Below are positions 40,929 through 60,305 of a DNA stretch of 64,000 bases, piece by piece. The notes under the pieces are model-generated. The model was not told where the DNA came from. It did not search any database and saw nothing but the letters and a program-made list of their open reading frames with translations. How positions within the stretch are numbered: the first letter of the stretch is position 1; every line of letters begins with the position of its first letter. The stretch covers positions 17,917-81,916 of the forward strand of contig JAJSLI010000020.1 of assembly GCA_021272315.1 (NCBI GenBank), in the 5' to 3' direction. Source of the DNA: Methylacidiphilales bacterium. GTDB taxonomy: Bacteria; Verrucomicrobiota; Verrucomicrobiia; Methylacidiphilales; UBA1321. The translations under genes and the position numbers were made by a program.

Positions 40929-41405
40929 TTACTTAAGCCTGCTCCACGACATCTTAGCCAAACCAATACTGGCCAGGATGGATGAGACCAAGAGACTGCT
41001 CCAAAGGCACCACAACTTGGCAACACTCCATCCTTGCAAAATAGCGTCGGGATCACCCATGGGACGGTTTGGGACAATATGCTGGACGTTTATAACGGGC
41101 CAACCGCTGCCCGGCCATAAAACACCGGGGTAGAGGTAACCCATGGGAACTGAGTCGGTGGAGTCATAAATTCTCTCATCCACAAAGACTTCCCACCCAA
41201 TAGTGCAAACGATCGTCATCACCAGAAAGATCAGACCGAATTTTACCAAGCCGCGCTTCCGGTAACCCAAGGTAAATCCAAAAATTCCACCGAACACGAT
41301 CCACACCAAGAACCCTAGACCAAATACAAGGGTGAGAATCAACATCATCGCCGAGGAAAGAATAAATTTCCCCCTATCGCTCATTACAGGACCAGCGCTC
41401 GTCAT
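40929..41405 (-). CDS. Hypothetical multi-TM membrane protein
   Basis: MTSAGPVMSDRGKFILSSAMMLILTLVFGLGFLVWIVFGGIFGFTLGYRK; start 41405 chosen inside ORF 40929-41444. Confidence 0.6.
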   Translation of the reverse strand: MTSAGPVMSDRGKFILSSAMMLILTLVFGLGFLVWIVFGGIFGFTLGYRKRGLVKFGLIFLVMTIVCTIGWEVFVDERIYDSTDSVPMGYLYPGVLWPGSGWPVINVQHIVPNRPMGDPDAILQGWSVAKLWCLWSSLLVSSILASIGLAKMSWSRLK

Positions 41406-41453
41406 AGGCACCCAATAAAATAGGCTCTGACATCTGCCACGCAACCCATACCG

Positions 41454-41960
41454 CTATAGCCCCGGCCCTTTCCATTCCGTCCCGCGCAAGCGGCTGATGA
41501 GATAATCGAGCGAATAGGCGCCGGGACCGAAAATCAAAACCACCACGGCGGTCGCCAGATAGGGGAAAGCCGTGTCGCCACAAAATTTATCGGTGTCAAA
41601 GCTCAGGAGATCCTTCAGCCCGTCCTGTTCCGTCGTGATGTAGGCGACGATGAAATTGATCGTAAGCGGTATGGAGGTCAATCGGCTTAACAAGCCCAGA
41701 ACCAGGAAGAGGCCGCCAAACGTTTCCGTGAAACCGACGATCCAGGCATTTTCCACGGGAAAAGGAATACCGAGGTCCTTGAAATATCCGATGGGCTTGT
41801 CGATATTCATCAGTTTGCCCCAGCCAGCCTGAATCAATTGCCCTCCCCACACAATGCGCATGAACAGGAGCAGCGGCGATCGGAGATGATTGCCGACGAG
41901 TACGAGGAGGCCGTAAAGAAATTCGACGCCGGCAACAAAAGGGTTGGTGAGTTTGGACAT
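41454..41960 (-). CDS. DoxX family protein (HvfX/BufD-like)
   Basis: LLLFMRIVWGGQLIQAGWGKLMNIDKPIGYFKDLGIPFPVENAWIVGFTETFGGLFLVLGLLSRLTSIPL; adjacent to DUF692/DUF2063. Confidence 0.9.
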   Translation of the reverse strand: MSKLTNPFVAGVEFLYGLLVLVGNHLRSPLLLFMRIVWGGQLIQAGWGKLMNIDKPIGYFKDLGIPFPVENAWIVGFTETFGGLFLVLGLLSRLTSIPLTINFIVAYITTEQDGLKDLLSFDTDKFCGDTAFPYLATAVVVLIFGPGAYSLDYLISRLRGTEWKGPGL

Positions 41961-41987
41961 AATATTCTGACGTTTGACGATGTGACT

Positions 41988-42872
41988 TTATTCCGCGCGA
42001 TAAAACCAACCGAACGAAGCCCATTGGGCGAACCAGGCTTGTAGTTTGGCGCTGAAAGGCTCGTCCGCTTTTTTACGGCGTAGCGCGCGTTCGCAGGCGG
42101 CCTGAAGCGTGAGTCCCTTCTTCAGTGCCGAGCAGATCAGGTAAGCTTCGGGTTCCAACCGCTTGTAGTAGACCGCGTTATCGCTGCGATGAACAGCCAG
42201 CCAGATCTTCTCCGGGGCAGGCAGTCTGGGTTTCGATGCTTTCTTGCGCTTGGACCGCTCATTCATGGCATTGCTCGCCTCGCCTGATGGCTCGACCCGG
42301 CGGCGGACGCGGAGCAGAAAATCGTCCACCGGATAGTCGCAGGCGAGAAAAGTGATGCAAGGTTGAGGAGTGAGCCGAAGGGTCGCCGGATCGCTGCCGA
42401 GAAGATCGTCAATCTCCAGCGGGGGCAGGCTCTCACCGTCGAAGGCGACGATGTGCGCCCATTCGAGCCGCACAATGTCTCGGGCCAGCCCGGGGTAACG
42501 CGCCGTCCAACGCGGTTCGTGTGCTAGAAATTTTTCCAGCCGGTCACCCAGATCGCGCAGGGTGTAGGAATGCGACGGATATTTCGTGAGATAGGCGACG
42601 GCCATGGCATGAAAGCGCTTTTCGCCGAGCAACGCGAGCAAACCGGGAAAATCATCATAAAAACAACCGAGGAGACGGAACCAATACTGACGGTTGTAAA
42701 TTTCGAGCCGCTCGAAGGAGGTCAGCCGGTTGTTCGGCTTGATGAATTCCGTCGCGACCTGACGCGTCGATTTCCCATTCACCCACTTCGCCTTCATCCG
42801 TTCGCCCGGGGTTAGCGGACGCATAATGGCCGTGGCAAAGGCGCGCTGGATGGAAAGGAGATTTTTTTTCAC
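41988..42872 (-). CDS. DUF2063 (HvfC/BufC-like) RiPP maturation partner
   Basis: IQRAFATAIMRPLTP...YNRQYWFRLLGCFYDDFPGLLALLGEKRFHAMAVAYLTKYPSHSYTLRDLGDRLEKFL. Confidence 0.93.
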   Translation of the reverse strand: MKKNLLSIQRAFATAIMRPLTPGERMKAKWVNGKSTRQVATEFIKPNNRLTSFERLEIYNRQYWFRLLGCFYDDFPGLLALLGEKRFHAMAVAYLTKYPSHSYTLRDLGDRLEKFLAHEPRWTARYPGLARDIVRLEWAHIVAFDGESLPPLEIDDLLGSDPATLRLTPQPCITFLACDYPVDDFLLRVRRRVEPSGEASNAMNERSKRKKASKPRLPAPEKIWLAVHRSDNAVYYKRLEPEAYLICSALKKGLTLQAACERALRRKKADEPFSAKLQAWFAQWASFGWFYRAE

Positions 42873-42894
42873 GGCAAAAATTCCCAGAACTCTT

Positions 42895-43749
42895 CTAGAC
42901 CGCGGCGGGTTGCCGCACCAAGTCGGTACAGAAGCGCCCAGCTTTTAGCGCTTCCGCGTGCACCTCGTCGAACGACGGAATCCGGTCGTCCCACTCGAGG
43001 AGCGTGGCCGTTGGGCCGATCAGCCCGATGGCGTGCGCGTACATCTTCCAAACCGGGTCGAGTACCGGATGATCGTGCGTGTCGAGGATGTACTTCTCGA
43101 ACTTCGAGTGGCCCGCGATGTGGATCTGCCCCACGCGCCCGTGCGGAATATGGTCCAGGTAATCATACGGGTTGAAATTGTGGTTTTGCGAGGAAACGTA
43201 GATGTTGTTCACGTCGAGCAAAATGCCCGCGTCGGCCCGCTCGACCACCTCGCTCAAAAACTCCCATTCTGTCATCTCCGAGGCATGAAACTCGGCATAA
43301 CTGCTTACGTTCTCGACCAAAATCGGGACTTCAAGGTAATCGCGTGCTTCGCGGATGCGTTGCGCCACGTGCCGCGCTGCCTCGAAGGTATAGGGCAGGG
43401 GCAGGAGGTCGTGACTGTAACTGCCGTCGACGCTGCCCCAGCAAAGATGGTCCGAGACCCACGGCGTGTTGGTCCGCTTGACCAGCCGCTTTAGCTTCGC
43501 CAGGTGCGTGCGGTTCAGGCCGTCGGACGAGCCGAAGTATATGGCCACGCCATGCTGGACGACCCGGTATTGATCGAGGATTGAGTCAAGCACCTTGAGC
43601 GGACGCCCTCCGTCGACCATGAAATTTTCGGAAATGATCTCGAACCAGTCGACCGTCGGTTTGCGAGAAAGAATATGCCCGTAATGCGGCACGCGCAGCC
43701 CGATGCCTATGCCGTAATTTGTAAAATTATTGAAACGATTTGCAGGCAT
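42895..43749 (-). CDS. DUF692 MNIO-type RiPP maturase (HvfB/BufB-like)
   Basis: GIGLRVPHYGHILSRKPTVDWFEIISENFMVDGG...GVAIYFGSSDGLN...VSDHLCW...LVENVSSY...ILLDVNNIYVSSQNHNF...QIHIAGHS; start ATG 43749. Confidence 0.96.
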   Translation of the reverse strand: MPANRFNNFTNYGIGIGLRVPHYGHILSRKPTVDWFEIISENFMVDGGRPLKVLDSILDQYRVVQHGVAIYFGSSDGLNRTHLAKLKRLVKRTNTPWVSDHLCWGSVDGSYSHDLLPLPYTFEAARHVAQRIREARDYLEVPILVENVSSYAEFHASEMTEWEFLSEVVERADAGILLDVNNIYVSSQNHNFNPYDYLDHIPHGRVGQIHIAGHSKFEKYILDTHDHPVLDPVWKMYAHAIGLIGPTATLLEWDDRIPSFDEVHAEALKAGRFCTDLVRQPAAV

Positions 43750-43767
43750 AAAAACGGATTTCCGGAC

Positions 43768-43802
43768 TGCTCCGGGGTGGCGCAGAGGCCTGCCCCGGAG
43801 CA
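43768..43802 (-). promoter_or_regulatory. Strong intergenic stem-loop between RiPP precursor and MNIO gene
   Basis: 10-bp perfect inverted repeat TGCTCCGGGG...CCCCGGAGCA, with TTTTT downstream on the minus strand. Confidence 0.6.
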
Positions 43803-43820
43803 ATCGCGGGAGAGAATATC

Positions 43821-44126
43821 TCAGGCGGGTTTCTTGGAACCGTCCGTGGCGCAGCCGCCCTTTCCTTTGCAGGAATTTTTGCCGGAGCAGCCGTTATCGC
43901 CGGTCTTACAGCCACCCTGGCCCTTGCAGCCATTCTTGCCGGCGCAGCTGTGTTGCCCCGCGGAAGAGTCATCGGCCAACTGACCCTTGAGAGCGGACAA
44001 AGACAGTGTGGGGTTGCCATTAGCCGTTGACGCATGGACCCGTGCGGCGGCGCCGGCCATCAAGCCCGTAAGGGCGACGGTGGCAAGCACGGTTTTCGTG
44101 TTGTTCAGGAGACGTGGATTTTTCAT
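43821..44126 (-). CDS. Bufferin/HvfA-type RiPP metallophore precursor (BufA2-like)
   Basis: MKNPRLLNNTKTVLATVALTGLMAGAAARVHA signal peptide; SCAGKNGCKGQGGCKTGDNGCSGKNSCKGKGGCATDG; directly upstream of DUF692. Confidence 0.88.
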   Translation of the reverse strand: MKNPRLLNNTKTVLATVALTGLMAGAAARVHASTANGNPTLSLSALKGQLADDSSAGQHSCAGKNGCKGQGGCKTGDNGCSGKNSCKGKGGCATDGSKKPA

Positions 44127-44220
44127 CTGTTTGTGGATCCTTTCTTGTTTCCGAATAGTGTGTGTACCTTTCGCCCGTCCGCCCCGGCACGTGCCGAATG
44201 GCCAACGGACATTTCCAGTT

Positions 44221-44246
44221 GGACGCGGAACCCCTGGTTTTATTCC
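44221..44246 (-). promoter_or_regulatory. Candidate ECF-sigma-type promoter upstream of RiPP precursor
   Basis: Minus strand GGAAT - 16 nt - CGTCC, about 95 nt upstream of the precursor ATG. Confidence 0.35.
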
Positions 44247-44328: not shown

Positions 44329-44529
44329 CTACTGCCCGGAATTTTGGCCCGGATTCAGATTTGTAATCGTCTTCTGGGTCGGATCGCTCGACCAGAGCGG
44401 GGCCTGTATACCCGCGCCGCTTGGGTTGCCCGTCTGGCTCGTCGGCGAGGCGGTATTGGCGTCTTGCTGGGACACTGTGCTGCAATGGGTCAGAAGTAAA
44501 AGGGCGGCAAGGAGAAGCGCTGGACGCAT
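44329..44529 (-). CDS. Small putative lipoprotein
   Basis: MRPALLLAALLLLTHCSTVSQQ lipobox-like; start 44529 inside ORF 44329-44595. Confidence 0.55.
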   Translation of the reverse strand: MRPALLLAALLLLTHCSTVSQQDANTASPTSQTGNPSGAGIQAPLWSSDPTQKTITNLNPGQNSGQ

Positions 44530-58751: not shown

Positions 58752-60305
58752 CTAGCGCAGCGGCGGAATGAAAGGCAGAAGGGAGACGCTGGGTTGGATG
58801 ATGTGAAGGAGGAGAAAGGGCATGAAACCGATGGCGAGAGAGGCGAGGATAAGGAGAACGTAGGGCGTGTATTCGGGCAGGGTGGCGGTGTCGGTCATGC
58901 CTGCCGAGGCGGGGACCGTTTCCCGGGTGTTGGCCAGCACGGCAGCCGGGCGCGGTTCGTACCGGGCGGGCATGGGACCGTAAAAAATGGTCTTGATGGC
59001 GCGAAGTTGGAAGATTGCGGTGATAACGGTGCCGTAAACAGCGAAGGCGGTGAAGAGGGGGCCAAGGAAGGGTAGAACGGCGGCGAAGGAAGCGAAAAAG
59101 ATCATGAGTTCGCCCGCGAAGTTGGCGAGTCCCGGAACGCCCATGGAGGCCATGGAGGCGAAGCTGAAGAAGACGGCGAGCAGGGGCGCGCGCTGGGCGA
59201 GGCCGCCGAGCTCGGTGAAGCGATTTTCGCCGGCGCGGTGGGTGATTTCGCCGCTGAGACCGAAGAGAAGCGCGGCCGAGAGACCGTGGGCGACCATGAG
59301 GAGAACGGCGCCGCTGATGCCGATGGTGTTCCAGCAGGCGATGCCGAGGAAGAGATAGCCCATGTGCATGATGCTGGAAAAGCCGATCATGGTCGGGAGC
59401 TCCTTCTGGGCAATGGTAATGAATCCGGCGTAAAGGAAATTCCCAGCGAGGAGGGTAAGAATGACGGGAAGCCAGTCGGTGAAGCCGTCATGAAGCATGG
59501 GAATGCCGATGCGGATCAGGCCGTAGAGCGCGAATTTCTTCAAGACACCGGCATGGAGCATGGCGGCGGCAGGCGGCGCGGATGCATACCCCGGAGGTGC
59601 CCACGAGTGGAAGGGGAAGAGACCGACAAGGATGCCAAAACCGACAAGCACAATGGGAAAAATAACGTCCTGGGCTTGATGGGAGATTACGTTGGGATGC
59701 CTCCCGATGTAGGACTGGAGAGCGGTGATGTCGAAGGTGCGATTCGGGGCCGGCAGCGCCATAATGAGAGCGATAAGGCCGGCCAGGAGAATGAGGCTGC
59801 CGGCCATGAGGTAGATGGTAACTTGGAAGGAGGCGAATTGACGGTTTTGCGTACCCCAAATGCCGATGAGGAGGAAGGTGGGAATGAGGGCGAATTCGTG
59901 GAAGATAAAGAAGAAAAAGATGTCGAGGGAAACGAAGGCACCCATGGCGCCGAGGGACATGAGGAGCAGGTAACAATAATATTCCGCGGAACGGCGGATG
60001 TTGTTCGGGGAGATGGCGATGGCTGCGAACGTGACGATGGCAGTGAGGAAGACGAGAGGAAGACTGATGCCGTCAACGCCAAGGTGAAAACGGATGGGGG
60101 GCACGCCGGAAAGGGTGACCCACGGGCAATCCATGATGTAACAGTATCCGCCCTGGGCGGCGGGATAGTTATAGAGGAGGCCAAGGGAAAGGACGAGGTT
60201 GAGAAGGGCGGCGATTCCTGCTGTGCGTTTGGCGGGAGCTCCGGCAATGATGGCGATGATGGCGGCGAGCGGCACCAAAAGGAGAACAAGGAGCGGAGAG
60301 GGCAT
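58752..60305 (-). CDS. nuoM: NADH-quinone oxidoreductase subunit M
   Basis: FFIFHEFALIPTFLLIGIWG...PFHSWAPPGYASAPPAAAMLHAGVLKKFALYGLIRIG; start 60305. Confidence 0.96.
   Translation of the reverse strand: MPSPLLVLLLVPLAAIIAIIAGAPAKRTAGIAALLNLVLSLGLLYNYPAAQGGYCYIMDCPWVTLSGVPPIRFHLGVDGISLPLVFLTAIVTFAAIAISPNNIRRSAEYYCYLLLMSLGAMGAFVSLDIFFFFIFHEFALIPTFLLIGIWGTQNRQFASFQVTIYLMAGSLILLAGLIALIMALPAPNRTFDITALQSYIGRHPNVISHQAQDVIFPIVLVGFGILVGLFPFHSWAPPGYASAPPAAAMLHAGVLKKFALYGLIRIGIPMLHDGFTDWLPVILTLLAGNFLYAGFITIAQKELPTMIGFSSIMHMGYLFLGIACWNTIGISGAVLLMVAHGLSAALLFGLSGEITHRAGENRFTELGGLAQRAPLLAVFFSFASMASMGVPGLANFAGELMIFFASFAAVLPFLGPLFTAFAVYGTVITAIFQLRAIKTIFYGPMPARYEPRPAAVLANTRETVPASAGMTDTATLPEYTPYVLLILASLAIGFMPFLLLHIIQPSVSLLPFIPPLR

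Follow-up and report, generated by a model that had tools for sequence, protein, structure and literature searches.

A Likely Copper-Responsive RiPP Operon of the Captophorin/Bufferin Class in Methylacidiphilales and Its Relatives in Verrucomicrobiota and Acidobacteriota

Described MNIO-PME1 Systems and the buf Operon

Thiooxazole installation and copper binding have been described for characterised MNIO-PME1 pairs (PMC13097082; PMC12452194). In their MNIOs, the residue after the catalytic-base Asp is Phe in EGKCG enzymes but Asp in Cys-Lys enzymes (PMC13097082), and the N, D, and H of a third iron site are essential in HvfB (PMC13419390). As for regulation, sigma-F of Caulobacter reads GTAACC-N16-CGAA for its bufferin operons (PMC3511200), and a survey reports sigma genes in Buf1 clusters and none in Buf2 clusters (PMC12452194).

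The window analysed here, a 64,000-nt stretch of a Methylacidiphilales genome, carries a buf operon on its minus strand (41454-44126). The four closely spaced genes of the preliminary description were all found as ORFs, 22–71 nt apart, and its assignment of a bufferin/HvfABCX-type operon, with a role for each gene, is backed by profile matches and by recurrent gene order. The genes, in the order of transcription, are as follows:

43821..44126, minus strand: bufA-like precursor, 101 aa, six Cys (NF050166 match, 40-member alignment, purifying selection)
42895..43749, minus strand: MNIO (DUF692) maturase of BufB type, 284 aa (PF05114, NF050167, 3BWW match, conserved residues)
41988..42872, minus strand: PME1 partner, DUF2063 plus RRE-like C-terminal domain, 294 aa, GTG start (PF09836, AlphaFold2, Foldseek)
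41454..41960, minus strand: DoxX-family membrane protein, HvfX-like, 168 aa (PF07681, NF050144)

A comparison contig, L030 (“uncultured Verrucomicrobia”), which encodes an MNIO identical in sequence to the one in a same-genus genome, keeps the entire block consisting of a bioA-like aminotransferase gene, bufA-MNIO-PME1-doxX, and argG. Relative to L030, all four frames show an excess of third-position change, with amino-acid identities of 72, 88, 70, and 64% from bufA to doxX, and therefore the four ORFs are regarded as real genes under purifying selection. The source genome has one MNIO and one BufA2-like precursor; a search of it for a second MNIO or an orphan BufA2-like precursor found none. 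A DUF2282 bufferin (PF10048) was likewise not found in this genome, and the precursor itself has no PF10048 match. An Rfam search gave no match, and a sigma-70 promoter/terminator scan gave a count no higher than in shuffles. Two small minus-strand ORFs flank the operon: a 66-aa lipoprotein-like ORF with the lipobox LTHC at 44329-44529, between the aminotransferase gene and the buf promoter, which is conserved at L030:5595-5780 (54% identity) and has no family match, and a 171-aa ORF with hydrophobic stretches at 40929-41444, immediately 3′ of doxX, which has no Pfam or NCBIfam match.

The HMM search that the preliminary description had proposed recovers all three families, PF05114 (351 bits) for the MNIO, PF09836 (DUF2063, 61 bits) for the partner, and PF07681 (70 bits) for DoxX, the last of which scores 59.5 bits with NF050144, below its cut-off of 80. 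The MNIO also passes the BufB model NF050167 (343 bits, cut-off 310), stays below the HvfB model PRK05409 (242 bits, cut-off 360) and the MbnB model TIGR04159 (36.8 bits, cut-off 325), and matches structure 3BWW. Residues H22, E37, E41, H66, H101, D179, N182, N189, H210, D223, and H225 are, among others, invariant in all 99 aligned MNIOs, while D254 is present in 97 and D255 in 87 of them. Through alignment to 3BWW, the N, D, and H essential at the third iron site in HvfB appear to have their counterparts among these conserved residues; by alignment, D254 is the putative catalytic base and D255 the putative Cys-Lys specificity residue. In Foldseek, an AlphaFold2 model of the partner (pLDDT 92) matches TglI (8hci/8hi7) and NGO1945 (3dee), with a weaker match to the RRE protein TbiB1, so that the partner has the DUF2063 plus RRE architecture of PME1; a PDB sequence search with the partner gave nothing meaningful.

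The Six-Cys Precursor Group and Its Distribution

The six Cys of the precursor (positions 61, 67, 73, 80, 86, and 92) lie in two modules, CAGKNGCKGQGGC (61–73) and CSGKNSCKGKGGC (80–92), with Cys-Lys pairs at 67, 73, and 86. A Sec-type signal was read by eye from a basic start, a hydrophobic core, and an AxA-type site, a pattern conserved in relatives, and cleavage is predicted, also by eye, after residue 32 (between VHA and S). Forty aligned non-redundant members of the group share the core CxGxNxCKGxGGC-x6-CxGKNxCKGxGGC, with six invariant Cys and Lys after most of them, and six Cys are present in 89 of 100 precursor rows. Against the BufA2 model NF050166, the precursor scores 33 bits (E-value 4e-8), below the cut-off of 60 bits; all 40 members match this model, but always short of the E-value that corresponds to its cut-off. 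Because the cut-off is not reached and the layout of the sixth Cys differs, the group is best described as a Buf2-like variant, not as strict BufA2.

The layout was compared with those of four Proteobacterial six-Cys precursors, from plasmids of Thiothrix, Pseudomonas putida, Sphingobium, and Asticcacaulis (L110-L112 and L114). A tblastn search of plasmids with the precursor gave no match, possibly owing to low-complexity masking, and the MNIO was used as query instead. The Buf2 systems share with the present group the precursor-MNIO-PME1 order, a precursor with a predicted Sec-type signal whose six Cys lie in CxGxNxCKG motifs, and an MNIO of 47–51% identity; three of the four have Asp at the specificity site. 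The first five Cys are also shared, whereas the sixth closes the second CxGKNxCKGxGGC module (CKGKGGC) in the present group and is located in the C-terminal tail after CKGxGF/W in the Proteobacterial precursors. The group consensus also differs in having more Cys-Lys sites, besides scoring below the BufA2 cut-off. Thus, the bufA-bufB-bufC order and the six conserved Cys of Buf2 are found here, but a BufA2 score of at least 60 bits and a sixth Cys in the tail are not.

Buf1 (DUF2282, the Caulobacter sigma-F regulon) shares MNIO, PME1, DoxX, and ECF control with the present group, but the precursor here is not DUF2282 and the MNIO is less similar (37–45%). HvfABCX/EGKCG oxazolin, fontiphorin, and gonophorin likewise share MNIO, PME1, DoxX, and a Cys-rich precursor with predicted Sec export; the precursor here, however, has no EGKCG repeats, Asp replaces Phe at the MNIO specificity site, and the enzyme stays below the HvfB cut-off. 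The earlier view that the precursor is distinct from EGKCG-type HvfA holds, the Cys-Lys (Buf2) branch being the nearest. Since a bufferin-type MNIO, a DUF2063 plus RRE partner, and a Cys-Lys precursor beside the MNIO are all present, the operon is, as judged from its genes, a member of the published MNIO-PME1 captophorin/bufferin class in its Cys-Lys (Buf2-like) branch, not of the EGKCG/HvfA branch; that the class is a known one had been noted before.

When the precursor alignment was run against 84,980 species genomes, at least 487 stretches encoding relatives were found. The best 80 of these belong by submitter name to Acidobacteriota or Verrucomicrobiota, except for L031 (“Betaproteobacteria”) and L086 (“Euryarchaeota”). 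Both labels look wrong: over 1,727 bp, L031 matches a genome of the source genus with 100% identity, and L086 has an acidobacterial-type operon. Among the same best 80, an MNIO frame directly follows the precursor in 76, and in two of the other four the stretch ends there; a DoxX gene is found in 57, and the gene order of the operon recurs in most, across the two phyla. For the clustering of neighbours, a codon-position filter was applied against antisense ORFs. In the MNIO tree, named Verrucomicrobiota stay together and the three groups need just two changes, so that vertical descent is the simpler reading. The survey text, in its accessible part, does not mention Acidobacteriota or Verrucomicrobiota, which may figure in its data (PMC12452194). 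With these loci, a recently recognised class of copper-buffering peptides would reach into two abundant soil phyla. The variant there is coherent and highly conserved, goes unnamed by the current curated BufA2 model, and has cultured members, Edaphobacter modestus and Silvibacterium bohemicum, that are open to experiment.

The Probable bufA Promoter and a Sigma/Anti-Sigma Pair

The regulatory elements considered are as follows:

44222..44246, minus strand: probable ECF-type promoter GGAATA-N16-GTC (block kept with L030; motif enrichment before Verrucomicrobiota bufA)
G000:C31:15547-16053; L124:3048-3557: ECF sigma orthologue in the source genome (orthologue of the operon-adjoining sigma)
L124:3554-4294 (G000:C31): anti-sigma-like gene, directly after the sigma gene

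The motif GGAATA-N16-GTC lies at 44246-44222, 120 nt before the bufA ATG, inside the block shared with L030. GGAATA-N15-17-[CG]TC occurs upstream of bufA in 19 of 28 Verrucomicrobiota and in none of 53 Acidobacteriota, while GTAACC-N15-17-[CG]TC, with the same −35 box as that of Caulobacter sigma-F, occurs in 19 of the 53 Acidobacteriota and in none of the 28 Verrucomicrobiota. Both ECF-like motifs are enriched over random windows from the same loci. In the 64-kb window there are two matches where 0.52 are expected; the second, GGAATA-N16-[CG]TC at 59961-59985 (minus strand), is to be seen against this chance expectation of about 0.5 per window. In a genome-wide search with the stringent form of the pattern, the bufA promoter is the sole exact match, and one-mismatch matches across the genome are no more frequent than those of a reversed-pattern control. 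Probably, then, bufA is driven by an ECF-sigma promoter, whose −35 box starts at 44246, the very end coordinate of the locus as first described; the earlier suggestion that regulation differs from that of EGKCG-type HvfA agrees with this.

An ECF sigma gene is present within the fetched stretch in 33 of the best 80 of the at least 487 loci. In those Acidobacteriota loci that were examined, the gene after it codes for a small zf-HC2 anti-sigma, and a search of the source genome for this acidobacterial anti-sigma gave no match. A membrane protein of about 150 aa, four-helix-like and with no Pfam family above cut-off, is encoded beside the sigma/anti-sigma genes in many Acidobacteriota buf loci (for example, L039:5214-5711, L040:8052-8510, and L066:4451-4948). 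In the source genome, the sigma adjoining Verrucomicrobiaceae operons is matched by a single clear orthologue (54% identity; next 28%), located on another contig, C31. Its gene has GGAATA-N16-CTC upstream, and this promoter looks autoregulatory. Among 289 sampled Verrucomicrobiota genomes, the family is found in 54, namely, in 24 of 26 with an MNIO versus 30 of 263 without (Fisher p 5e-18, a value inflated by shared ancestry), and the sigma gene is located within 2 kb of the MNIO in six of the 24. The motif precedes 23 of 30 sigma loci (control mean 1.6, maximum 6); three of the seven loci without it (L134, L136, and L154) adjoin a buf operon, and sigma genes beside the operon may do without their own promoter. 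Because 30 of the 263 genomes without MNIO carry it, the family has other targets, and with so many such carriers a wider regulon is to be expected; some genomes also encode paralogues.

In about 30 of 34 sequences, the anti-sigma-like proteins share two Cys and one His located past the predicted membrane helix; an AlphaFold model from four sequences reached a pLDDT of only 55 and was set aside. The group has a zf-HC2 or DUF3379-like one-TM protein as anti-sigma versus NrsF/DUF1109 in Buf1, and an ECF promoter with sigma/anti-sigma genes of the kind reported absent from Buf2 clusters, which makes a new and testable circuit. A copper sigma of the CorE type was also considered and set aside: it carries a Cys-rich domain of its own at the C-terminus, and no anti-sigma was found for it, unlike the pair here (PMC3107203). 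As suggested by the shared motif, the C31 sigma would act on the bufA promoter. What these analyses add to the known class is a well-bounded two-phylum variant and a specific ECF circuit.

Proposed Function and Alternative Explanations

Given the genes and their families and order, the Cys layout, the active-site residues, the promoter motif, and the sigma/anti-sigma pair, all read from the DNA itself, the locus is most likely an operon of the captophorin/bufferin class that makes a RiPP and probably responds to copper. The modification chemistry and the roles of copper as ligand and as inducer are proposed from relatives, that is, Buf1, fontiphorin, oxazolin, gonophorin, and preliminary published work on a six-Cys bufferin of C. 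vibrioides. The precursor would be made with a Sec signal peptide and handed by the RRE domain of PME1 to the MNIO, whose diiron centre would convert core Cys by four-electron oxidation to 5-thiooxazoles, at least the Cys-Lys residues 67, 73, and 86 and perhaps all six. The modified peptide would then be exported to the periplasm and buffer excess Cu(I)/Cu(II), with DoxX in an accessory membrane or redox role. Transcription would start from the ECF promoter read by the sigma encoded elsewhere (G000:C31:15547-16053), which may be autoregulated and held by the one-TM anti-sigma, whose two conserved Cys and one His lie outside the membrane. Several observations count against this reading: the precursor scores below the BufA2 cut-off, the operon has no adjoining copper gene, the sigma gene and the operon are on separate contigs, the sigma family is also found in genomes without an MNIO and has paralogues in some, a related cluster in Microbulbifer was not copper-induced (PMC12538549), and the Cys number of the precursor is very different in several order- and class-level relatives.

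A further proposal, which we hold only tentatively, is that the precursors of Acidobacteriota and Verrucomicrobiota form a captophorin family of their own, with two CxGKNxCKGxGGC modules in tandem and every one of the six Cys modified. The product would be a six-ring copper ligand that lacks the disulphide of Buf1, and control would lie with an ECF sigma/anti-sigma pair dedicated to it, which in Verrucomicrobiota would have a Cys-Cys-His sensor domain outside the membrane.

The same enzymology might serve another metal or stress, such as gold, zinc, chromate, an oxidant, or envelope stress, copper being secondary. Bufferin operons were discovered as gold-induced (cited in PMC12452194), chromate/sigma-F control of such operons has been described (PMC3511200), and the Cys and His of the anti-sigma could sense many signals. 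No clear metal-related gene adjoins the operon and no copper gene is adjacent to it; a Cu-type P-ATPase is encoded elsewhere in the source genome. Since every characterised thiooxazole peptide binds copper (PMC13097082), however, we consider this alternative unlikely. Somewhat less probable still is a different MNIO product, for example oxazolone-thioamides as in methanobactin, or a peptide with some Cys left as disulphides or free thiols: the Cys layout is unlike that of tested precursors, and thiooxazole and oxazolone-thioamide are isobaric and have been mistaken for each other before, but the MNIO passes the BufB cut-off and falls far short of that for MbnB, and a partner of PME1 type is present. 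That the operon is decaying or silent, with the precursor exported unmodified as a plain Cys-rich metal binder, is very improbable, for although order-level relatives have reduced, few-Cys precursors and in two of the best 80 of the at least 487 loci the precursor lacks a neighbouring MNIO, the frames are intact and under purifying selection, the catalytic residues are intact, and gene order is kept across two phyla.

Apart from the copper-buffering operon proposed here, some loci show unusual precursors. L087 and L099 are the two with no MNIO found beside the precursor, and L049 and L090 have two precursor genes each. In L016, L018, L022, and L024, order-level relatives with genomes of about 2.3 Mb, reduced precursors with few Cys (SCKGKQSCKGKKK..., with ends SCWC, SSWC, or SCC) precede a bufferin-like MNIO. 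In the class-level relatives L026, L027, and L028, the precursors are rich in repeats of the DKDDCPGKDK type, each with a single Cys, and the MNIO behind them has the catalytic motif EWDG, not EWDD. In L012, the gene upstream of a divergent MNIO at 1468 encodes a 237-aa protein that contains Cys and begins with a twin-arginine-like sequence (ESRRKFIGSLGAAALAG); it is possibly a Tat-exported substrate.
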